Part shown: one piece after another, positions 22,241-40,849 of the stretch | Numbering within the stretch: position 1 is the first letter of the stretch | How the letters are laid out: each line of letters begins with the position of its first letter | Assembly (NCBI RefSeq): GCF_016804325.1 | Contig: NZ_CP043627.1 | Coordinates: forward strand, 6,541,001 to 6,605,000 | Source: Methylobacterium aquaticum | Lineage (GTDB): Bacteria; Pseudomonadota; Alphaproteobacteria; Rhizobiales; Beijerinckiaceae | Direction: 5' to 3' | DNA length: 64,000 nucleotides | Notes under the pieces: generated by a model | The model's database searches: none | The model's input: only the letters and a program-made list of their open reading frames with translations | What the model was told of the DNA's origin: nothing | Made by a program: the position numbers and the translations under genes

Positions 22241-22561
22241 ATGGCCGCACGAACCCGCACTCGAACCGCGAAGGCGCCCCCCGGCTCCGCGGCGGCGAAG
22301 TCCCGGACGCCGAATGCCCAGGCCGCGGCCAATGCCAACGCGCGCACCCCCACGGGCAAGCCGGAGGTCAGGATCTTCGTGTCCTACTCCCACGTCGACG
22401 CGGCCGCCCGGGCGAAGCTCGAAACCCATCTCGCGCCTCTCATCAGGGACGGGGTCAGCACCTGGTTCGACGGACGCATGGACCCGGGCGACGCGCTCGA
22501 CGCCGGCATCTCCAGGGCCCTGAGGCAGGCCCACATCCTCGTGGCCCTGCTCAGCCCCGAG
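22241..22561 (+). pseudogene. TIR-domain protein, cut by an insertion sequence
   Basis: The first 107 residues remain. A basic, Ala/Thr-rich linker (residues 1-40) precedes the start of a TIR domain: EVRIFVSYSHVDAAARAKLE, RDGVSTWFDGRMDPGDALD, ISRALRQAHILVALLSPE. Bacterial TIR domains often hydrolyse NAD and act in phage defence. The FVSYSH / LLSP pattern is of the TIR_2-like group. The IS3-family element begins directly after SPE and supplies the stop codon TGA. Neither the rest of the TIR domain (its catalytic Glu helix) nor any effector domain is found on the other side of the IS, so sequence was lost or moved. Not functional as it stands. Confidence 0.75.
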
Positions 22562-22600
22562 TGAACCGCTCCGGGTTTCTCGGAGGCTGTTTGTGTTGGG

Positions 22601-23568
22601 TCAGGCGGCCAAGGCTTGGTCGCTGACGTGGGTATAATAGTGCGCCTCGGCCTCGGCCTCGGCGGGAGGGATGTTGCCGATCGGCGCGAGCAGGCGGTGG
22701 TGGTTGTACCAGTCGACCCATTCCAGGGTGGCGTACTCGACCGCCTCGAAGGAGCGCCATGGGCCGCGTCGGTGGATCACCTCTGCCTTGAACAAGCCGT
22801 TGATCGTCTCCGCGAGGGCATTGTCGTATGAGTCGCCGACGCTGCCGACGGACGGCTCGATACCCGCTCCGGCCAAGCGCTCAGTGTAGCGCAAAGCCAA
22901 GTATTGCGAGCCGCGGTCCGAATGATGAACCAGGCCGCTGCCCTGGACAGGACGACGCTCGTACAGCGCCTATTCCAGAGCATCCAGAACGAAGCTCGCG
23001 TGAGCACTGCGCGAGGCTCGCCAGCCGGAGCCTGCCCTCGGGCCGGCGAAGCCGGACCCGGGGGATGCGTCGGGCGAACACATCGATGACGAAGGCCACA
23101 TAGACGAAGCCCGACCACGTCGCCACGTAGGTGAAGTCGCTGACCCACAGAGCATTCGGCCGGGGCGCCTTGAACTGACGGTTGACGCGGTCGAGGGGGC
23201 AAGCTGCGGCCGGGTCAGGGATCGTGGTGCGAACGGTTCTGCCACGCACCACCCCCGCCAAGCCCATCCTGCGCATCAGCCGCGCCACCGTGCATCGCGC
23301 GGTCACGATCCCCTCTCGGGCCAGCTGCCGCCAGATCTTACGCACGCCGTAGACACAGAAGTTCGCCTCGAACACGCGCTGGATCTCGATCATCAACGCG
23401 GCGTCGCTGCGAGTGCGAACCGGCTGCTTCTCGGGATCGGCACGCCGGGCAGCGTGCAGGTAGTAGGTCGACGGGGCGATCGGCAGCACCCTGCAGATCG
23501 GCCTCATCCTGAGGCTCTCGAAGGACGACCCCGTAGACGGCCCGATGATCGTCGATGAAGCTGATCAT
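22601..23568 (-). pseudogene. IS3-family transposase OrfB, broken into three frames (copy 1)
   Basis: Reading right to left, the frame starts [14 protein letters not shown], then shifts at a foreign insert of about 22-25 bp. It continues PICRVLPIAPSTYYLHAARR ... ALWVSDFTYVATWSGFVYVA (first catalytic Asp) ... FVIDVFARRI (second), shifts again after a 37-bp palindromic insert, and ends SVGDSYDNALAETINGLFKA (catalytic Glu in AETING) ... EWVDWYNHHRLLAPIGNIPP. All DDE motifs survive, but no single frame makes the protein. The second insert contains CCGGCTTCGCCGG, a REP-like hairpin. Both copies share both inserts, so this version spread while already defective. Confidence 0.85.
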
Positions 23569-23891
23569 GGCCGAGACCGGCGGTCGAGCTCCGCCATCGC
23601 GAAATATGCGCTCGCCTTGCGCAGGATCTCGTTGGCCTGGCGTAGCTCACGGTTCTCCCGTTCGAGCGCCTCGATCCGCTCGCGCTCGTCCGTCGTCCGG
23701 CCAGGACGCACGCCCTGGTCGCGTTCGGACTGGCGCACCCAGTTCCGCAGTGTCTCGCCCGAGCAGCCAATCTTGGCGGCGATCGACTGGATCGCCGACC
23801 ACTGCGAGCCATGCTCGCCCTCGTGCTCGCAGACCATCCGCACGGCGCGCTCACGCACCTCAGGGGAAAACGGCGTTGTTCGCTTCGTCAT
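23565..23891 (-). CDS. IS3-family OrfA (copy 1)
   Basis: 108 residues: a helix-turn-helix ([20 protein letters not shown] ... [20 protein letters not shown]) followed by a leucine-zipper-like coiled coil ([19 protein letters not shown]), the normal OrfA of the IS3 family. It binds the element ends and, by frameshifting, fuses to OrfB. Here OrfB is broken, so OrfA alone can at most act as a repressor or partner. Identical protein in copy 2. Confidence 0.9.
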
Positions 23892-23941
23892 GGCTCCATC
23901 CTCTCAGAAGTTGGAGCCTCCGGGAAACCCGGAGCGGTTCA

Positions 23942-24484: not shown

Positions 24485-24766
24485 TCGACACGACAAAGGC
24501 CCTCCACGCCCTCGCCGGGGAAGTCGCTGCCTCCGGCGGCCGCCCCGCCATGCAAGTCGCCCGCTCAATGATCGCGCGTCTCGACCGCGCGGGGCCGCGA
24601 GATTGCGCCGGACGAGCACCACCTGGTCCTTCGCGAGTCCATCACCGGCCGGGTGAGGGAGAGCAGGCACAGCCTGCTGAGCGCGTACCTCCACGTCGTC
24701 TGCGGGGACGGCGGCGCGACCGAGTTCCTCGACGTCTACGACGAGCACGTCGCCCTCGCGAGTTAA
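24481..24766 (+). pseudogene. Small protein 'alpha', module A copy, one-base frameshift
   Basis: Starts MIDTTKALHALAGEVAASGG; after RLDRAG one extra base near 24594-24600 shifts the frame. Corrected, it continues REIAPDEHHLVLRESITGRV, RESRHSLLSAYLHVVCGDGG, ATEFLDVYDEHVALAS, about 94 residues. A relative with the same ending exists at 28378-28615 (RHSHLSALLMSS, GDGDANEYLAPFG). The stop TAA lies inside the shared motif GTTAACCACTTGTTAACC. I do not recognise the family. It occupies the same position relative to the motif and the hairpin array in both modules, which suggests it belongs to the module rather than the cargo. Confidence 0.55.
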
Positions 24767-24779
24767 CCACTTGTTAACC
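24762..24779 (+). promoter_or_regulatory. GTTAACC direct-repeat motif, module A
   Basis: GTTAACCACTTGTTAACC contains two TTAACC half-sites. It overlaps the alpha stop codon and lies 175 bp before the cargo gene. The same 18 bases with one change (A for G) occur at 28611-28628 in the same relative place, so the element is probably a protein-binding site or promoter. Confidence 0.5.
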
Positions 24780-24954
24780 GTGTTCAAGCACCGGGCGGTC
24801 GCCGGACCGCTCAAGACTTGCGGGCCGGCGCCTGCCGGGGTATCCATAAGGTCAGTTTCGACGGTAACCATACCTCGAACCTTGACTCGACTGCGCGGCC
24901 ATCATGGCCTTGTTTCGTGCGCATGGGGCGACCCGCCCTGCGCACGAGGAATCC

Positions 24955-25416
24955 ATGGCCGACACGAAGTCCCGCAGCCGCCTTCTGGCAGAGACCGGCC
25001 ACGCCATCCTCTCGATGGGCGTCACCAGCTCCACGGCCTACCTGGCCCTTGGCAGCGAGGCGGAGCGCGAGGCGTTCCTTCGCGCCCTGTTCGATGACAA
25101 TGACGTCGTCTACCTCGTTTTCTGGCTCAACGCTGACGAGTTCACGTTCCTTCCTGCGAAGGGGGATAGGGCGCTCGCCGCGGTGGGGCCCGCCACGAAG
25201 GCGGATGCCTTTTTCGTAGCCTCGTTTGAGGAGGCGATCATTCTCGGCATGGACCTGGGCGACGACGATGCTCGCCGGTACCTCCCGAGGCTGACGCCTT
25301 CGCACATCCCGCCCACGAGCCGGTTCCGCGCGTTCGACGAGGAGTTCCTGACGGCGGCCGAGGAGCGCCGGCGGCGCCGGGATGCCAAGCGCGCGAAGGG
25401 GGCGGCCCATGGCTAA
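24955..25416 (+). CDS. Cargo hypothetical protein 1, module A
   Basis: 153 residues from ATG 24955 (MADTKSRSRLLAETGHAILS) with GAGGA upstream; ATG 24904 is less likely. Alternating sheet/helix pattern (DNDVVYLVFWLNADEFTFLP, ADAFFVASFEEAIILGMDLG) and a strongly basic C-terminus (ERRRRRDAKRAKG). No domain recognised. It overlaps the next gene by 8 bp. It sits between the GTTAACC motif and the hairpin array, where module B carries an unrelated protein. Confidence 0.55.
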   Translation: MADTKSRSRLLAETGHAILSMGVTSSTAYLALGSEAEREAFLRALFDDNDVVYLVFWLNADEFTFLPAKGDRALAAVGPATKADAFFVASFEEAIILGMDLGDDDARRYLPRLTPSHIPPTSRFRAFDEEFLTAAEERRRRRDAKRAKGAAHG

Positions 25417-25783
25417 GCGCCCCCGCCGAAAGGCCCGCCTGGCCCCGCGGCCTGTCCCGGTGGCGACCGACGAGGCCATCGAGCGCCTGGAGCGGTACCT
25501 CTACCAGCGCTTCGGGTCGCTGCCTCGCCCGGTCACGCACGTCTCCCGGGCTAGGACGCTGGACGACGGATTCGCCGCCGACGTCCAGCTTTTCGACGGC
25601 AGCCGCTCCATCCTCATCGTGCGCCACGTGGAGGGGCGCGATCCTGAGGAGCGGTGGTGCATGCGGGGAAAGTACGAGCCGGAGGGTCCCTCCGGCTTCT
25701 ACTGGAACACCATCGCAGAGGGCTGGGTCCGCGCCACCGATGAGGAGGCTGAGGCAGCTATAGCGGCAGGGCACTGCCTGTAA
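25409..25783 (+). CDS. Cargo hypothetical protein 2, module A
   Basis: 124 residues. Basic N-terminus (MAKRPRRKARLAPRP), then ATDEAIERLERYLYQRFGSL, SILIVRHVEGRDPEERWCMR, YWNTIAEGWVRATDEEAEAA. No domain recognised. It overlaps the end of cargo protein 1 and stops 9 bp before the first hairpin of the array, so the array may lie on the same transcript. Confidence 0.55.
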   Translation: MAKRPRRKARLAPRPVPVATDEAIERLERYLYQRFGSLPRPVTHVSRARTLDDGFAADVQLFDGSRSILIVRHVEGRDPEERWCMRGKYEPEGPSGFYWNTIAEGWVRATDEEAEAAIAAGHCL

Positions 25784-25792
25784 CACCAGAGG

Positions 25793-25992
25793 CCGTGCCT
25801 AAGGGCACGGATGAACCAGCCTTCACATCCGAGGCCACCACCGTGAACCCCCGTGCCAACATGAGCACGGATTACCCATCGTGCGCGATTCCACCGGTCA
25901 GTTGTCCAACCCCGTGCCATTGCGAGCACGGATTGCCCCTCCTTCACTTGCGCGGCCACTACCGCGAACTCCCCGTGCCTCTGAGCACGGAT
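25793..25992 (+). repeat. Array of four CCGTGC...GCACGG hairpins, module A
   Basis: Units at 25793-25812, 25851-25872, 25912-25933 and 25973-25992. Each reads CCGTGCC, a 3- to 8-base loop, then GCACGGAT; the first has a 7-bp stem with loop TAAG. Start-to-start spacing is 58, 61 and 61 bp, and spacers are 38-39 bp. Spacers 1 and 3 resemble each other (CCTTCAC, GGCCAC, GAAC in register), while spacer 2 resembles the single spacer of the array at 29334-29410. A 120-bp dimer has thus been duplicated. It is not a CRISPR: the repeats are short, the spacers are related, and no cas gene is present. Confidence 0.75.
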
Positions 25993-26000
25993 AACTCAAA

Positions 26001-26098
26001 GGGCTCTGCAGGCCCACCTCCGTGGCGGCCACACACGGGTCAAAGTGGCCATGAACGCGCTGCCCGCCGGGAGGCCCTGCGGCGCGGTCGAAACCGAA
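26001..26098 (+). ncRNA. Conserved structured tail, module A (candidate RNA)
   Basis: Directly after the array come three potential stem-loops: GGGC/GCCC (26001-26015), GGCCAC/GTGGCC (26027-26050) and CGCTGC/GCGGCG enclosing GCC-GGGA-GGC (26058-26084), then GGTCGAAACCGAA. The same three stems occur in the same order at 29415-29503, although the loop of the second differs in sequence and length. The GGGA loop is a GNRA tetraloop only if the plus strand is transcribed. This suggests a structured RNA ending the cargo transcript, but expression is unproven. Confidence 0.45.
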
Positions 26099-26118
26099 CC
26101 GCATTCCGAGAGGCGGGG

Positions 26119-26679
26119 CTAGTCGTCCCCGCCTTCGGCCTCCATCGCGCGCCCGAGCCGGAGCTCCTCAGGCTCCTCGGGCGTCGCCGCCATCCTCTCG
26201 CGGATCTCCTCAAGCGAGGCCGGCCGGTAACCCCACCGGTCGACGCCGACGTCGCAGCTTCGCGCCGTGTCCGGCAGGAGCCCGTGCGTGTGCCCGAAGC
26301 AGTGGCGCGAGCCCCGGAATGCGCCGACCCAGGCGCGCATCGGGTAGTGGGAAAAGACCCACCTTTCGCCGGCAAGCTTCGGCGTCGCCAAGTCGTAGAC
26401 GGCGTGCCAGCCCAAGCCGGTCGTCTTTGTCTTGTCGTGGTTGCCCCGGCATAGAATCTTGCGGCCGCGCAGGCGCCGAAATAGCGCCGCGAGCTCTTCC
26501 GGCGTTCCCCCGAGCGCGAAGTCGCCGAGGTGCCAGACCTCGTCGCGCGGGCCGACGACCGAGTTCCAGGCTTGCACCAGGAACTCGTTGTGCTCCGCGA
26601 CGTCGGCGAACGGGCGACCGCACATGGCGAGCACGCCGACGTGGTTGAAGTGCGTATCGGCGGTTACGAAAATGGTCAT
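26119..26679 (-). CDS. Calcineurin-like metallophosphoesterase
   Basis: 186 residues from ATG 26679 (MTIFVTADTHFNHVGVLAMC). The metal-binding motifs of the family are in order: D-x-H in TADTHFNH, GDFAL (WHLGDFALGG), GNHD in ILCRGNHDKTK, H in VFSHYPM, and GHTHG. It resembles the phage/plasmid-type phosphoesterases annotated as 2',3'-cyclic phosphodiesterase-like or simply metallophosphatase; the substrate is unknown. The gene is convergent with module A: its stop lies about 20 bp from the RNA-like tail. It reads away from the broken integrase upstream (37 bp gap), so both may belong to the same element. Confidence 0.85.
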   Translation of the reverse strand: MTIFVTADTHFNHVGVLAMCGRPFADVAEHNEFLVQAWNSVVGPRDEVWHLGDFALGGTPEELAALFRRLRGRKILCRGNHDKTKTTGLGWHAVYDLATPKLAGERWVFSHYPMRAWVGAFRGSRHCFGHTHGLLPDTARSCDVGVDRWGYRPASLEEIRERMAATPEEPEELRLGRAMEAEGGDD

Positions 26680-26716
26680 GAGGGCAGCCTCCGTAGCAGG
26701 GGCTGCCGCCACGCGG

Positions 26717-28167
26717 TCACGCCCCGGATGGTCTATTGGTTGCGGTGGGGCGTATCGGGCGTTTCACGGCGTCTCTCCGTCGGCCGGCGTTTCGAGACTG
26801 TGTGGATCGCAACTCGAGATTCGGCGGGCAAGCGGGGGCGGCCGCCTCCGGCGAGTTATCCCTGGGCTCCGTCGGTTTCCGCTCCTCGGCGGGCTTGCGC
26901 TTCGTGCGGGGAGGGCGGGGAGGGGGCTCTGGCAGGGGGATGAGGGCCAGCGCGGCGCGCTCCCGCTCGTAGGCCTCCAGGACGGCGTCGACCCAGAGTG
27001 TCATGCCCTCCGCCTTCAGCGCCATGCGTTGCGAGCGGTCGTAGTGCAGCCGCGTCACGGCCTCGGTCCGCTCGCGCTCGTCCTCGTTCTTGCTGGGCTT
27101 GTGCGCAAGCATGGCGCTCGCCGCGCCGCCCAGCCTGCGGTCGCCGAGATAGGTGCCGAGGCCGCGCCGGGCGTCGTGCGGGATCCAGCGCTCGATGCCG
27201 TGCAGTGCGAAGAAGTCCTGTCGCCCAGGCTTCGGGTTCCCGTCGGCGTCGAGGCCCTGGAGCCGGCCCAGAACCTTATTGACCGTGCCCTGGTCGGCGT
27301 GGCTCTCGCTGCGGGCGGAGGGGCATGCCCAGGGCGAACGCTCGTCAAGCTCCGCCCAGATTCGCTCCAGCACCGCCAACGCGGCCGGGGGCAGCGGAAG
27401 GGCATGGGGACGGCCACCGGACCGCCCACCCTTCATTTCGACCCCGGTCCAGTTCGCGCTCAGCCAGCCCGGCATGCCGTCCAACGAGAACAGGCGGTCA
27501 CGCCGGAGAACCGACACCGGGAACGTTCGCTGGCCCGTAAGGACGACGAGCCACAGCATGGCGAGCGCCCCCGTCCCGGTTCTATGCTCCGTCTGCCCGA
27601 GCGACCTGTGCCGCTCGGCGACGGCCAGCGTCCGGGCGAGTTCGTCGACGGTCGGGACGTGGTCGCGCGTGCCGGGCTTGTACCGGATCGCCCAGCGCTT
27701 CCACCATTCATAATCGCAGGTGTCGAGGCCGCTGATGCCGGCGTTGTACTGCCAGGCCCACGACATCATTTCCTTGGCCCTGCTGGACGACCCGGCGCGC
27801 CGCAGAGACCGCGTTGCTCTTCACGACCGCGTTCCGGACGCCCTCCAGATCGGCGATGCGGACATCGGAGACGAGCCGGTCCCGGATGCGGTCGAACGCG
27901 GGGTGGCGCAGGTAAGCCTCGTACTTGCGTTCATAGCCCGGCTTGAGGTCGGGCGCCTTGGCCGCGAGGAACTCCTCCGTGAGGTCCGCGCCAGAGCCAG
28001 GGCCCGTAGGCGCGCCGGTCGGCCTCGGTCTGCCCCGGGGTGTCGTCCACCGCCGCGGCGACCTCGGCGGACGCAGCCACGTCGGCCGTCTGGCCCATCG
28101 ACGCCTCGAAGGCCGAAACCTGGCGCCGGGGGTCCCGACCGCGCTTGAGAGAGATCTTCGCGAGGGC
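26717..28167 (-). pseudogene. Second tyrosine recombinase, frameshifted and N-terminally truncated
   Basis: Three frames carry one protein: VSAFEASMGQTADVAASAEV ... RAYGPWLWR; then DLTEEFLAAKAPDLKPGYER ... RVVQQG; then EMMSWAWQYNAGISGLDTCD to the end. Extra single bases near 28005 and 27785 explain the shifts. It parallels the integrase at 16800-18410 (REYGPWEYQDLVDLYLAEKL). Catalytic residues persist: Arg in VLTGQRTFPV, HxxR in IPHDARRGLG, Tyr in VTRLHYDRSQ. The N-terminal arm-binding part is missing: a stop precedes 28167. It ends with a long basic proline-rich tail. Probably a dead integrase of a second, related element. Confidence 0.8.
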
Positions 28168-28209
28168 GGCTTAACGGAAAGCCTGGGCCGGGGGCGGCTC
28201 CGTGAAATT

Positions 28210-28235
28210 GTCATCCACCCCCGGGGGTGGATGAC
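28210..28235. repeat. Perfect 26-bp palindrome
   Basis: Two 13-base arms (GTCATCCACCCCC and its exact complement) meet without a spacer, then GTTTTTA follows on the plus side. It lies between the dead integrase and the module B alpha relic. It could be a terminator, an operator or a recombination site. Transcripts entering it from the left on the plus strand are not evident, so a terminator role is doubtful. Confidence 0.6.
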
Positions 28236-28377
28236 GTTTTTACGGGGCGGGCACGTCGCGGTCCGGAGGGCGCCGGCTCCCAAGGTCAGCGTACCGGGCC
28301 CGACACCTGGGGGACGTATTGGCTCGCCCCCGCTTGCCCCACGCCTTGGGCTACCGGCACGCCACCATCTCCTGTCC

Positions 28378-28615
28378 ATGGCGCCCTTCGACGAAGAGCG
28401 AGGCATCGTCACCACGTCGACGCCTCAGATGGACCACAGGATTTGCAAGAAGATCCCGGGGGGCAGCGGCATTTCGTCGAGCGCGAGAGCCTGCGGAGGC
28501 GTGTGACGGAGATCCGGCACAGCCACCTCTCGGCGCTTCTCATGTCGTCGCTGGCGACGGAGACGCTAACGAATATCTGGCGCCCTTTGGCGAGTCTGCC
28601 GCCTTTGCTGGTTAA
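28378..28615 (+). pseudogene. Small protein 'alpha', module B copy, two frameshifts
   Basis: Pieces in three frames line up with the module A protein: ICKKIPGG, then QRHFVERESLRRRVTEIRHS, HLSALLMSSL, then GDGDANEYLAPFGESAAFAG. The first break is in a G run near 28456-28462, and the second near 28552. The stop TAA at 28613-28615 lies inside the GTTAACC motif exactly as in module A. The start (ATG 28378) is uncertain because the N-terminal residues do not match. Either it is decaying or the sequence has indels. Confidence 0.5.
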
Positions 28616-28628
28616 CCACTTATTAACC
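28611..28628 (+). promoter_or_regulatory. GTTAACC direct-repeat motif, module B
   Basis: GTTAACCACTTATTAACC, differing by one base from the copy at 24762-24779 and again overlapping the alpha stop codon. The following 115 bp leader also shows patchy similarity to module A (TTGT...ATGGGGC...CGCCC). Likely a shared control element for the cargo gene. Confidence 0.5.
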
Positions 28629-28726
28629 ATCCCGGTGGATGTCCCGATGTTTACCATGACATGCGAAGGCATCTGGGATAGGATGGACTGACGATTACAG
28701 CCGGATTTGTCTCCTTTGTATGGGGC

Positions 28727-29323
28727 ATGTCGCCCCTGCGTGGGAGCTTTGACGTGTCGGAACATGGATTGCGCCGGGAACGGTACCCGGTCGGCGACTT
28801 CATCTGGACTAACCTGAGCGAGGCGGAGCGCGCCCATCTCCGCCGGTTCGCGCGTGACGCAGACGGGCGTGACGAGGAAGACGAGGGATATTGCACCCTG
28901 GGAAACGCGGGCCTCAGCGTGCCTGGCGAACCGGGCGAGCCTGTCGAGGATGGGGACCTGCGCCTCCTGCTGGAATACATGTCGTCTGCGCGCCTCATCG
29001 ACGTCCCGACTGACGAGGGCGAATGGTACTACATCCTCGGTCTCGCGACCCCGACTGAGGGGTCGCGAGACCGTATCGGGCGCCTGTTCGCGTTGGCCAC
29101 CGACATCGACGATGAGGAGGCCTTCGACGAGGAGGAGCGGTCGGAACGCATCGTGGAGTGGCAGCGGCAGTGTGCCCGGCTCCGGGCGCTCCGGCGGTTG
29201 GGCTATCTCGACCCGGAAGTGCCGGCGCGGCCAGCCCTTACGCGGTGGGCCGAGGAGGGCGGTCCTATTCCGGTTGTAGACAACGGGAGCGCGCAACTCG
29301 ATCTCGACATCGAGGGGGAGTAG
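28727..29323 (+). CDS. Cargo hypothetical protein, module B
   Basis: 198 residues, strongly acidic (DADGRDEEDEGYCTLGN, TDIDDEEAFDEEERSERIVE). Hydrophobic-core stretches are DLRLLLEYMSSARLIDVPT and GEWYYILGLATP. No domain recognised, and no similarity to the module A cargo proteins is visible. The start could also be GTG 28754. It lies between the GTTAACC motif and the two-unit hairpin array, which begins 10 bp after its stop. Confidence 0.6.
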   Translation: MSPLRGSFDVSEHGLRRERYPVGDFIWTNLSEAERAHLRRFARDADGRDEEDEGYCTLGNAGLSVPGEPGEPVEDGDLRLLLEYMSSARLIDVPTDEGEWYYILGLATPTEGSRDRIGRLFALATDIDDEEAFDEEERSERIVEWQRQCARLRALRRLGYLDPEVPARPALTRWAEEGGPIPVVDNGSAQLDLDIEGE

Positions 29324-29333
29324 CTTACTTACA

Positions 29334-29410
29334 CCGTGCCCTTGGCACGGATAAACCATTGTGCGCGATTCCACCGATTAGATGTCCAACCCCGTGCCAA
29401 GAGCACGGAT
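29334..29410 (+). repeat. Array of two CCGTGC...GCACGG hairpins, module B
   Basis: Units at 29334-29352 (7-bp stem, loop CTT) and 29392-29410, 58 bp apart. The 39-base spacer matches spacer 2 of module A over most of its length (GTGCGCGATTCCACCG, TGTCCAACC). The layout equals module A minus one dimer, so the two arrays share ancestry and differ in unit number. Confidence 0.75.
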
Positions 29411-29414
29411 CTCA

Positions 29415-29515
29415 GGGCTCTGCAGGGCCCACGTTCACTCCGTGGTGGCCACCCTCGGGAAACGTGGCCTGGATCGCGCTGCCCGCCGGGAGGCCCTGCG
29501 GCGCGGTCGAAAAAC
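29415..29515 (+). ncRNA. Conserved structured tail, module B (candidate RNA)
   Basis: Stem-loops GGGC/GCCC (29415-29430), GGCCAC/GTGGCC (29447-29469, loop of 11 bases versus 12 in module A) and CGCTGC/GCGGCG with inner GCC-GGGA-GGC (29477-29503) match the module A tail, as does the trailing GCGCGGTCGAAAA. Preservation of the stems while the loops drift favours a folded RNA, though two copies are too few to prove covariation. Confidence 0.45.
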
Positions 29516-29548
29516 GAACAACCTACAAGTTGGACTGACATGAACTCC

Positions 29549-30334
29549 TCAGGCGGTTCCGAGAAGGTCCAGGATCGCGCGCCGGTCGGCCACCACGCCC
29601 GGGTCCTCGCGGTGGCGCGGATAGGATCGATTGCAAGGTATGTCGGCCCTGATGCGGGCCGGCCGCTCCGAGAAGACCAGGATGCGCTGGGCCAGCATCA
29701 GGGCTTCCTCCACGTCGTGGGTCACCAGAAGCGCGGTGAAGCCCTTGTCCTGCCACAGCCGCACCAGCTCGGCCTGCATCGTCAGCCGGGTCAGTGAATC
29801 GAGCTTGCCCAGCGGCTCGTCGAGCAGCAGCAGCGGCGGCGCGTTGACGAGAGCGCGGGCTAGTGCCACCCGCTGCGCCATGCCGCCCGAGAGCTGGTGC
29901 GGGAAGGCGTCGGCGAAGCCCGACAGGCCGACCAGGGCCAAGGTCTCTTCGATCCGGCCGCGTTCCGCCCGGCCGCGCCCGCGGGCCTCCGGGCCGATCG
30001 CGACGTTGCCGAGGACGCTGCGCCAGGGATAGAGCGTCGGGTCCTGGAACACGAGGCCACGGGACGGGTGCGGGCCGCGCAAGGGAGCGCTATCGACGTC
30101 GATTCGGCCCTCGTTCGGCGGCTCGAGCCCGGCAACGAGGCGCAGGAGGGTCGACTTCCCGCATCCCGACGGCCCGAGCAGGGCTACGAACTCGCCCGGC
30201 GCGACGTCGAACGACACGCCGTCGAGCACCGGGAGCGGCGCCTTCTTCAGCGCGAAGGCGTGGTGCACGTCGCGAAGCGAGACGGCGGCGCCGCGGGCGG
30301 GCGCCTCGAATCGTGCGATCAGGCCAGCTACCAT
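29549..30334 (-). CDS. ABC transporter ATP-binding protein (SsuB/TauB type)
   Basis: 261 residues from ATG 30334. Walker A GPSGCGKST, Q-loop LVFQDPTLYPW, signature LSGGMAQRVALARAL, Walker B LLLLDEPLGKLD and switch histidine LLVTHDVEEAL are all intact. This is the nitrate/sulfonate/taurine-type family, working as a cytoplasmic dimer on two permease copies. It overlaps the permease stop by 7 bp, so the two are coupled. Together with the binding protein at 31334 it forms an SsuABC-like importer; a sulfonate or related organosulfur substrate is inferred from the neighbouring SoxC, OsmC and LLM genes. Confidence 0.93.
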   Translation of the reverse strand: MVAGLIARFEAPARGAAVSLRDVHHAFALKKAPLPVLDGVSFDVAPGEFVALLGPSGCGKSTLLRLVAGLEPPNEGRIDVDSAPLRGPHPSRGLVFQDPTLYPWRSVLGNVAIGPEARGRGRAERGRIEETLALVGLSGFADAFPHQLSGGMAQRVALARALVNAPPLLLLDEPLGKLDSLTRLTMQAELVRLWQDKGFTALLVTHDVEEALMLAQRILVFSERPARIRADIPCNRSYPRHREDPGVVADRRAILDLLGTA

Positions 30335-37018: not shown

Positions 37019-37100
37019 GTCCTGCCCGGCCTATCCCCACGGCACCTGTCATCCTCCGCGTCATCAGCTCAGAGCTTGCTTGGTTCCGTCCCACGGAATT

Positions 37101-37260
37101 GACACTCTGCTGGTCATTCCGGGGCCGCGCAGCGGAGCCCGGAATCCAGACGCGCTAACGGTACAGGATCAAGCGGAGTACTCCCCGCCCCGTTCTGGAA
37201 GACCTGTGTTTCTGGATTCCGGGCTCCGCTGCGCGGCCCCGGAATGACAAGCAGGATGTC
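37101..37260. repeat. Long inverted repeat after the soxC operon
   Basis: A perfect 38-bp inverted repeat (arms 37113-37150 and 37211-37248) extends imperfectly to about 50 bp per arm, with a 60-bp centre. The arm core GTCATTCCGGGGCCGCGCAG is of a kind I associate with dispersed intergenic palindromes of Hyphomicrobiales. It lies between the convergent cytochrome and LLM genes and may end both transcripts. Confidence 0.75.
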
Positions 37261-37355
37261 AACTCTGTAGGCTGCAAACAAACGGTCTCGCAGTCAATGC
37301 GAACTCGTGTTGATGAAGAGCGAGGCGTGTTACGCGCAGGCGTTCGGCGGGTTCG

Positions 37356-39192: not shown

Positions 39193-39242
39193 TGAACCGC
39201 TCCGGGTTTCCCGGAGGCTCCAACTTCTGAGAGGATGGAGCC

Positions 39243-39569
39243 ATGACGAAGCGAACAACGCCGTTTTCCCCTGAGGTGCGTGAGCGCGCCGTGCGGATGG
39301 TCTGCGAGCACGAGGGCGAGCATGGCTCGCAGTGGTCGGCGATCCAGTCGATCGCCGCCAAGATTGGCTGCTCGGGCGAGACACTGCGGAACTGGGTGCG
39401 CCAGTCCGAACGCGACCAGGGCGTGCGTCCTGGCCGGACGACGGACGAGCGCGAGCGGATCGAGGCGCTCGAACGGGAGAACCGTGAGCTACGCCAGGCC
39501 AACGAGATCCTGCGCAAGGCGAGCGCATATTTCGCGATGGCGGAGCTCGACCGCCGGTCTCGGCCATGA
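39243..39569 (+). CDS. IS3-family OrfA (copy 2)
   Basis: 108 residues, identical to the copy 1 protein: helix-turn-helix then a coiled coil ([19 protein letters not shown]). It would bind the IS ends, but no intact OrfB partner is encoded here. Confidence 0.9.
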
Positions 39570-40533
39570 TCAGCTTCATCGACGATCATCGGGCCGTCTA
39601 CGGGGTCGTCCTTCGAGAGCCTCAGGATGAGGCCGATCTGCAGGGTGCTGCCGATCGCCCCGTCGACCTACTACCTGCACGCTGCCCGGCGTGCCGATCC
39701 CGAGAAGCAGCCGGTTCGCACTCGCAGCGACGCCGCGTTGATGATCGAGATCCAGCGCGTGTTCGAGGCGAACTTCTGTGTCTACGGCGTGCGTAAGATC
39801 TGGCGGCAGCTGGCCCGAGAGGGGATCGTGACCGCGCGATGCACGGTGGCGCGGCTGATGCGCAGGATGGGCTTGGCGGGGGTGGTGCGTGGCAGAACCG
39901 TTCGCACCACGATCCCTGACCCGGCCGCAGCTTGCCCCCTCGACCGCGTCAACCGTCAGTTCAAGGCGCCCCGGCCGAATGCTCTGTGGGTCAGCGACTT
40001 CACCTACGTGGCGACGTGGTCGGGCTTCGTCTATGTGGCCTTCGTCATCGATGTGTTCGCCCGACGCATCCCCCGGGTCCGGCTTCGCCGGCCCGAGGGC
40101 AGGCTCCGGCTGGCGAGCCTCGCGCAGTGCTCACGCGAGCTTCGTTCTGGATGCTCTGGAACAGGCGCTGTACGAGCGTCGTCCTGTCCAGGGCAGCGGC
40201 CTGGTTCATCATTCGGACCGCGGCTCGCAATACTTGGCTTTGCGCTACACTGAGCGCTTGGCCGGAGCGGGTATCGAGCCGTCCGTCGGCAGCGTCGGCG
40301 ACTCATACGACAATGCCCTCGCGGAGACGATCAACGGCTTGTTCAAGGCAGAGGTGATCCACCGACGCGGCCCATGGCGCTCCTTCGAGGCGGTCGAGTA
40401 CGCCACCCTGGAATGGGTCGACTGGTACAACCACCACCGCCTGCTCGCGCCGATCGGCAACATCCCTCCCGCCGAGGCCGAGGCCGAGGCGCACTATTAT
40501 ACCCACGTCAGCGACCAAGCCTTGGCCGCCTGA
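39566..40533 (+). pseudogene. IS3-family transposase OrfB, broken into three frames (copy 2)
   Basis: The start ([14 protein letters not shown]) is separated from PICRVLPIAPSTYY by a short insert at about 39608-39632 (GTCCTTCGAG...CTCAGGATGA, like a common alphaproteobacterial REP core). The middle with both aspartates ends FVIDVFARRI. A 37-bp insert at about 40070-40106 containing CCGGCTTCGCCGG separates it from GWRASRSAHASFVLDALEQA ... YDNALAETINGLFKA. No single frame covers the protein. The identical damage in both copies shows it predates their duplication. Confidence 0.85.
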
Positions 40534-40572
40534 CCCAACACAAACAGCCTCCGAGAAACCCGGAGCGGTTCA

Positions 40573-40849
40573 CATCGAGCAGATGGCGAACGCCGTGACC
40601 GAGTACGCCAACAACGCCGTTCCGGGCTCGGTGACGGAGGGCAGGCTGTCGATCAACGTTGGCTCGCAGGTCATCGCCAAGGCGGTGCAGCGGGCGGTTG
40701 ACGCGGCGCCGGCTAAGGCGATCGAAGCGGCCGGTGGGCAGGCCGGTCTCACCGAGATCGTATTCCGCAAGCTCAATCTCGATCATGACGCCAACGAGCA
40801 CAACACCCTGGCGCCGGTCATCGCCTCCCTACCGGCGACGGCGCGGTAG
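40573..40849 (+). pseudogene. Hypothetical protein, 5' end probably lost to the IS
   Basis: About 90 residues in frame from the IS end: IEQMANAVTEYANNAVPGSV, then TEGRLSINVGSQVIAKAVQR, AVDAAPAKAIEAAGGQAGLT, EIVFRKLNLDHDANEHNTLA. It could start at ATG 40583, but the in-frame residues before it suggest a longer original. No family recognised. It ends 7 bp before the phage-like membrane protein gene, so it likely belonged to that set. Confidence 0.5.

Follow-up and report, generated by a model that had tools for sequence, protein, structure and literature searches.

What kind of element is a row of short hairpins closed by a folded tail, standing directly behind small orphan genes of Methylobacterium aquaticum, and what are the segments that are held between its hairpins? 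The window, by which is meant the whole stretch of 64,000 nucleotides (nt) that was analysed (positions 6,541,001 to 6,605,000 of contig NZ_CP043627.1, assembly GCF_016804325.1; G000:C1:6541001-6605000, G000 being the organism's own genome), contains two copies of this element, A and B. A third copy, C, lies 27 kb upstream of the window in the same genome, and the other two of the five known copies, J and K, are found in two other Methylobacterium species (genomes G001 and G063, the J contig being that of Methylobacterium ajmalii IF7SW-B2). The surprise of the element is its inserts and not its hairpins: eight of the twelve inserts, members of two lineages, run antisense to the codons of conserved motifs in signalling proteins. 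These antisense inserts are absent from the initial annotation, an earlier note made from the sequence alone which proposed an undescribed structured RNA at this locus.

The two copies in the window are made up of the following parts.

25793..25812, plus strand: array A hairpin 1 (CCGTGCC/GGGCACGG)
25818..25852, plus strand: array A insert s1; minus strand reads ARGFTVVASDVKA, like the signalling tip of a chemoreceptor (MCP); best E 9.3e-7
25851..25872, plus strand: array A hairpin 2
25876..25910, plus strand: array A insert s2; minus strand reads VGQLTGGIAHD, the H-box of a histidine kinase (HK); best E 7.1e-5
25912..25933, plus strand: array A hairpin 3
25937..25971, plus strand: array A insert s3; minus strand reads EFAVVAAQVKE, a variant of the MCP tip; best E 2.9e-4
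25973..25992, plus strand: array A hairpin 4, adjacent to the tail
25993..26098, plus strand: conserved folded tail, copy A
29334..29352, plus strand: array B hairpin 1
29358..29392, plus strand: array B insert s2; minus strand reads VGHLIGGIAHN
29392..29410, plus strand: array B hairpin 2, adjacent to the tail
29411..29515, plus strand: conserved folded tail, copy B

The hairpins of copy A (CCGTGCC-loop-GCACGGAT) start at 25793, 25851, 25912 and 25973 and are thus spaced by 58, 61 and 61 bp, and hairpins of the same type start at 29334 and 29392 in copy B, with a period of 58. Similar periods are seen in C (59, 61, 58), J (58, 58) and K (two periods with a sum of 115). In both window loci the array is followed by about 105 bp of tail, which contains three stems (GGGC/GCCC, GGCCAC/GTGGCC and CGCTGC/GCGGCG), so that the four hairpins, their tail and the second locus with all three stems are present as the initial annotation had described them. 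The near-constant hairpins hold inserts of 30-38 nt between them, and the motif RAACC stands 3' of nine of the 12 inner hairpins and of none of the five that adjoin a tail.

The same annotation ascribed the difference in copy number to the doubling of a 120-bp dimer and regarded the spacers as merely drifting, neither of which agrees with the comparison of the arrays. Although s1 and s3 are related, s2 occurs once in copy A, and the set of inserts differs from array to array: s1, s2 and s3 in A; s2 in B; s1, s2 and Z in C; X, Y and Z in J; s2 and s3 in K. The tails of A and J are identical in 97 of 100 positions, whereas their inserts are unrelated (17/37, 16/38 and 13/38), and insert Z is common to C and J (32/38). 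Inserts are therefore exchanged as blocks while hairpins and tail stay in place. Between A and C, s1 is conserved in 34 of 39 positions, s2 in 33 of 38 and the adjoining orphan gene orf133 at 81%; between B and K the corresponding values are 34 of 38 for s2, 92% for part of the orphan gene orf198 and 80% for the region upstream.

Read on the minus strand, the s2 inserts give VGQLTGGIAHD (A), VGQLAGGIAHD (C), VGHLIGGIAHN (B) and VGHPTGGIAHD (K), the H-box of histidine kinases (matched motif VGQLTGGIAHD), and the s1 and s3 inserts give GFTVVASDVKA and EFAVVAAQVKE (A), GFTVVNSDVKA (C) and GFAVVAAEVKE (K), the chemoreceptor signalling tip (matched motif GFAVVA[SA]EVK[AE]) near two of its natural variants. 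The plus strand is accordingly antisense to such mRNAs. The E-values listed above are those of the best matches outside the arrays when array A was searched against 111 genomes of the genus, the tail reaching 9.6e-4; about six or seven candidates were scored per genome, and genome counts are lower bounds. In the same search the best E for array J was 0.0095, about 1/111, which suggests that the E-values are calibrated and that X, Y and Z have no convincing match. A diguanylate-cyclase motif in Z and an MCP-like reading of Y were considered by eye and are not claimed. Among 27 fetched loci (L008-L034) a regular expression recognised the MCP motif at 24 and the H-box at one, leaving L018 and L034 unmatched. 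Of the 24 matches that the own genome has outside the arrays, all but the five weakest were retrieved; these 19 comprise seven MCP, six HK and six other sites; all 13 MCP and HK sites are antisense. A strict MCP motif run over 80 loci, which include the array loci and were not picked for MCP content, hit two real MCP genes and two array inserts, and had no hit in 20 Mb of random DNA, as was also true of an HK pattern written from the array copies. When nine minus-strand peptides were compared with NCBIfam, s2 of A and C matched HK families only, weakly (E 0.04-0.16), and the other seven matched nothing; sequence searches of the PDB with minus-strand peptides returned nothing relevant. Open frames run opposite two of the arrays, one of 139 codons at J (L035 7922-8338, plus strand) and one of 85 codons at C (L005 8654-8908, minus strand); they have no Pfam match in the parts scanned and are not kept in A or K.

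The differences between inserts and genes have a pattern of their own. The tip insert of K differs from each of the two MCP genes in five of 33 bases, every one of them at a third codon position; for s1 and s3 of A the differences from these genes number 7-9 bases, of which 4-6 are third positions; and s2 of A differs from four HK sites of its own genome at 21 third and three first positions. This is the pattern expected of coding fragments, or of guides held to invariant codon positions. Duplex energies were computed at sites chosen by similarity and serve only to illustrate pairing. We regard it as nearly certain that the two insert lineages are antisense to the two motifs.

An RNA acting through such inserts would have to be read from the plus strand, and the folding of the element points the same way. 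Helix 4 of the tail is paired in 100% of cells in five sequences, with one GC-to-AU change and three G-U wobbles, a pairing which fits a plus-strand RNA. In the three copies folded, the folding energy z of the plus strand is -1.4 for A, -2.9 for B and -3.8 for J, against +0.1 for the minus strand of A. The initial annotation had called for a search for covarying pairs, and this gave a signal in tail and hairpins that does not exceed shuffled controls. Two tail pairs are changed on both sides, but four measures of tail covariation are reached by 72 of 500 shuffles and a fifth by 315 of 500, so that covariation of the tail is not decisive. For the hairpins, between 88 and 500 of 500 shuffles are as good, depending on the measure, and the one compensated pair (J2) is equalled in 266 of 500; three single-sided changes leave C-A on the plus strand, in a count without the first repeat of J, which is degenerate, and without the seventh pair on the loop side, which forms in 6 of 16. 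The proposal of an undescribed structured plus-strand RNA is supported in part, by the pairing of helix 4, by the plus-strand folding energy and by Rfam, in which no family lies above the gathering threshold at the arrays or tails of the window, and is left without the backing of covariation. At E up to 10 Rfam gives two weak microRNA matches, at 27220 and 28128, away from arrays and tails. A plus-strand RNA is regarded as likely.

A covariance model, R1, was built from the last hairpin and the tail for a search of the kind which the initial annotation had suggested. Under strict filters, by which weak matches can be lost, it found exactly the five copies in three of the 111 genus genomes, and in a sample of 149 genomes of the family the own genome alone. 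A search pattern that describes a single hairpin with its 3' flank is present in four of the 111 genus genomes, the fourth being G107, where the match is a lone one with no second hairpin within the 400 bases viewed and no tail match. In viral contigs the hairpin pattern has three matches, all single hairpins, and neither of two exact tail pieces was found there. Spread by phage or plasmid was considered and set aside, copy A having no match at E 0.01 in plasmid and phage records in a search that misses short imperfect matches. A dispersed repeat of REP-like or insertion-sequence origin, of which many copies per genome are expected, was rejected with three loci in the own genome, and a tRNA or tmRNA remnant was rejected because the window has none. 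No published description of such an element was found in the literature searched.

The surroundings of the two window copies comprise these features.

24761..24779, plus strand: palindrome AGTTAACCACTTGTTAACC upstream of orf170
24904..25416, plus strand: orf170, orphan gene upstream of orf133
25382..25783, plus strand: orf133, orphan gene directly upstream of array A; a relative stands at the same place in copy C, and another in genome G044 without an array
26119..26712, minus strand: calcineurin-like phosphoesterase, convergent with the copy A tail; it occurs beyond J as well, and beyond C as its C-terminal 79 residues
26717..28415, minus strand: phage-type integrase in two frames (26717-27769 and 27708-28415), homologous to a 607-codon integrase frame in G001
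28610..28628, plus strand: palindrome GGTTAACCACTTATTAACC upstream of orf198
28727..29323, plus strand: orf198, the orphan gene that directly precedes array B; relatives precede arrays J and K, the one at K being split among several frames

The stop codon that directly precedes each copy belongs to a small orphan gene, orf133 in A and C and orf198 in B, J and K, and this extends to all five copies the location that the initial annotation had given. The products of orf133, orf170 and orf198 fall below every Pfam cut-off and have no PHROG or PADLOC family. Nine relatives of orf198 are known, of which the three that carry a name are all from Methylobacterium, and none was found in viral contigs; the predicted structure of one relative has a mean pLDDT of 54.6, too poor for a fold search. 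Among 13 proteins related to orf133, the two with a source name are hypothetical proteins, one of them from Methylobacterium. The region upstream is common to the orphan-gene operons and contains a palindrome, GTTAAC...TTAAC, which is weaker in K and looks like a shared operator. The palindrome, together with a leader hairpin (GGGGCG-ACC-CGCCCC, by eye), is seen upstream of orphan genes also in the array-free genomes G044 and G002, the sites being 24761-24779 and 28610-28628 in the window, 7757 in L005, 9092 and 10989 in L035, 2146 in L040 and 2218 in L041. A site resembling a sigma-70 promoter at 28656-28684, upstream of orf198, is the sole one between 25300 and 29700, and the sole terminator-like site of that region, a 12-pair hairpin with a T-run, is at 28209-28236 near the integrase.

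Most copies have an integrase module next to them. Phosphoesterase and integrase, the latter probably of the tyrosine class going by family names, are convergent beyond the tail in A and J, whereas copies B and K abut a chromosomal ABC-transporter gene instead. In G044, G002 and G010 an orf198-like gene runs straight into the convergent phosphoesterase with no array or tail between them; G002 and G010 are identical at this locus, and G044 also has orf133 (70%). Because the same genes stand there without array and tail, the element was either inserted in the carriers or lost from these three genomes. Elsewhere in the window, two inverted insertion-sequence copies (22561-23941 and 39193-40573) are 99.9% identical and each contain an Rfam ALIL pseudoknot. 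A short TIR-domain gene (22241-22564, ThsB-like in PADLOC) ends at the insertion sequence and is probably a truncated defence gene, and an imperfect inverted self-match of 184 columns with 75% identity lies at 37090-37271.

It is proposed that the element is an RNA which a few Methylobacterium carry in a mobile region with an integrase, where it makes up the 3' portion of operons of small orphan genes. Read in the plus direction, the chain of hairpins would hold the 30-38-nt inserts apart and the three-stem tail would close it, and the inserts would work as exchangeable antisense segments, two lineages of which are complementary to codons of the most conserved motifs of histidine kinases and chemoreceptors, both of them large signalling families of the host. 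One RNA could then pair with many paralogous mRNAs in the cell and lower the host's sensing or motility, which may favour the element. Several observations speak against this. Only five arrays were found, and X, Y and Z, four of the twelve inserts, match nothing beyond chance. The inserts are imperfectly complementary to sites of their own genome (best E 0.001), and a better MCP match (E 1.2e-5) than that of G000 stands in G001, a genome without s1-s3. The nine minus-strand peptides have no match in Pfam. Between array copies, third positions account for only 1-3 of the 3-5 differences per pair in s2, which therefore does not look like coding sequence in use. Where a guide base faces a third codon position, it is not tuned to the GC-rich codons of the host and would go better with codons of lower GC content. 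The inserts are about half unpaired in local folding (0.44-0.64), and a simple scan of 25300-29700 found no promoter- or terminator-like site at either array. The whole explanation, including family-wide silencing of host signalling, is the leading one, unproven and held with somewhat less than even confidence.

Hairpins and tail could also be the working parts of the element. In such an account the element is a structured 3' end (a terminator, stabiliser or processing array) between convergent genes, and the inserts are harmless fragments of host genes that were picked up passively with the units. Its position directly after stop codons, the convergent phosphoesterase of A and J, the conserved and paired tail and the absence of an identifiable target for X, Y and Z agree with this, but neither window tail has a T-run terminator, the inserts are about as conserved as the adjoining coding sequence, and passive capture would seldom take up the single best conserved motif of each of two families and do so in one antisense orientation; the account is rather doubtful. 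The integrase offers another use for the same DNA, namely as its recombination or attachment site, an alternative which the initial annotation also named in part, with the repeats as arm-type binding sites and the tail as the crossover point. The integrase of G001 has an arm-binding domain, its homologue lies beside copy A, and B and K stand right beside the chromosomal ABC-transporter gene. Since the genomes that keep the orf198-like gene and the phosphoesterase (G044, G002 and G010) do so without the element, the tail changes preserve G-U pairs, which matter to RNA and not to DNA, and the antisense motif inserts are left unexplained, an attachment site is improbable.

The layout itself calls for comparison with guide RNAs, and the array might serve a nuclease or transposition machine as a crRNA mimic, an RNA anti-CRISPR or a set of homing guides to conserved motifs. 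The hairpin and insert period of about 60, the presence of RAACC after most inner and no tail-adjacent hairpins, the block exchange of inserts that match conserved genes, and a type I-E repeat in the genus genome G031 which ends GGGGATGAACCG would suit it. Its repeats, however, are not clearly closer to CRISPR repeats than random hairpins or shuffles, no type I-E Cas7 was found in the three carrier genomes G000, G001 and G063, and the Pfam scan of nearby open reading frames returned insertion-sequence transposase and integrases and no Cas or Tn7 domain, no genome-wide search for other Cas or Tn7-type proteins having been made; guides of this kind are unlikely. Finally, the minus strand may code for short peptides that mimic H-box and MCP tip. 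Differences to real genes lie mostly at third codon positions, copy C holds both motifs in its one 85-codon frame, and the s1 frame of A has an in-frame ATG. Yet the motifs of A lie in three separate open frames and those of K in two, Pfam has no match, and neither 58 nor 61, the spacings of the hairpins, is divisible by three, which makes such peptides very improbable.

Known systems resemble the element in part. The hypothesis of CRISPR mimicry, prompted by GGATRAACC after hairpins and the 60-bp period, was rejected because the similarity shows no clear excess: against six Methylobacterium CRISPR repeats, I-E and I-C-like ones among them, 4-10% of random GC-rich hairpins are as good as the best units and 19-85% as good as the others, and shuffles are as similar to CRISPR repeats in 283 of 500 cases for array A, 60 of 500 for tail A and 159 of 500 for tail B. 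In G000 Cas1 occurs only at a locus far from the element, G001 has it in fragments, and none was found in G063. The own genome has a CRISPR array with Cas1 (G000:C1:1411905-1412585; L097 17209-18163) with a different 31-bp repeat that looks I-C-like. Like a CRISPR array, the element has regularly spaced palindromic repeats at about 60 bp, exchangeable inserts of 30-38 nt and a last repeat with a different 3' side; unlike one, it has no cas genes seen nearby, repeats that diverge from each other and are not clearly CRISPR-like, inserts of which 8/12 resemble signalling genes, and a constant folded tail. The RNA of type III toxin-antitoxin systems (ToxIN) likewise consists of tandem structured repeats tied to a small gene, whereas here the array follows the gene, the inserts vary and no toxin family was found for the orphan genes. 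Bacterial multi-target antisense small RNAs, and plant miR482/2118, which pairs with the P-loop codons of NB-LRR genes, share with the element the complementarity of one RNA to a motif common to many paralogous mRNAs; in the element, by contrast, the inserts are exchangeable and separated by hairpins, lie in a mobile element and would pair deep in coding sequence. RNA anti-CRISPRs (Racrs) are, like it, repeat-like hairpin RNAs in mobile elements beside small genes, and the finder described in PMC10651486, with a set of 17,823 CRISPR repeats, keeps solitary matches whose identity to one of the known repeats is 90% or more. The element is an array and not solitary, and is less than 90% identical to the six Methylobacterium repeats compared; for these repeats a Racr was rejected on the identity rule (PMC10651486).

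The proposed antisense role leads to a more general possibility, which we regard as doubtful though worth stating, that the element is a programmable antisense array, in which exchangeable inserts taken from family-signature codons let one RNA silence whole gene families (histidine kinases and chemoreceptors) in a CRISPR-like layout, without Cas and by pairing with mRNA. If this is true, mobile elements of bacteria would have a means of acting on whole signalling families at the codons that are conserved best, with a layout convergent with that of CRISPR and no need of Cas. Even if the RNA were inert, the capture and exchange of antisense copies of two family signature motifs would need explaining.
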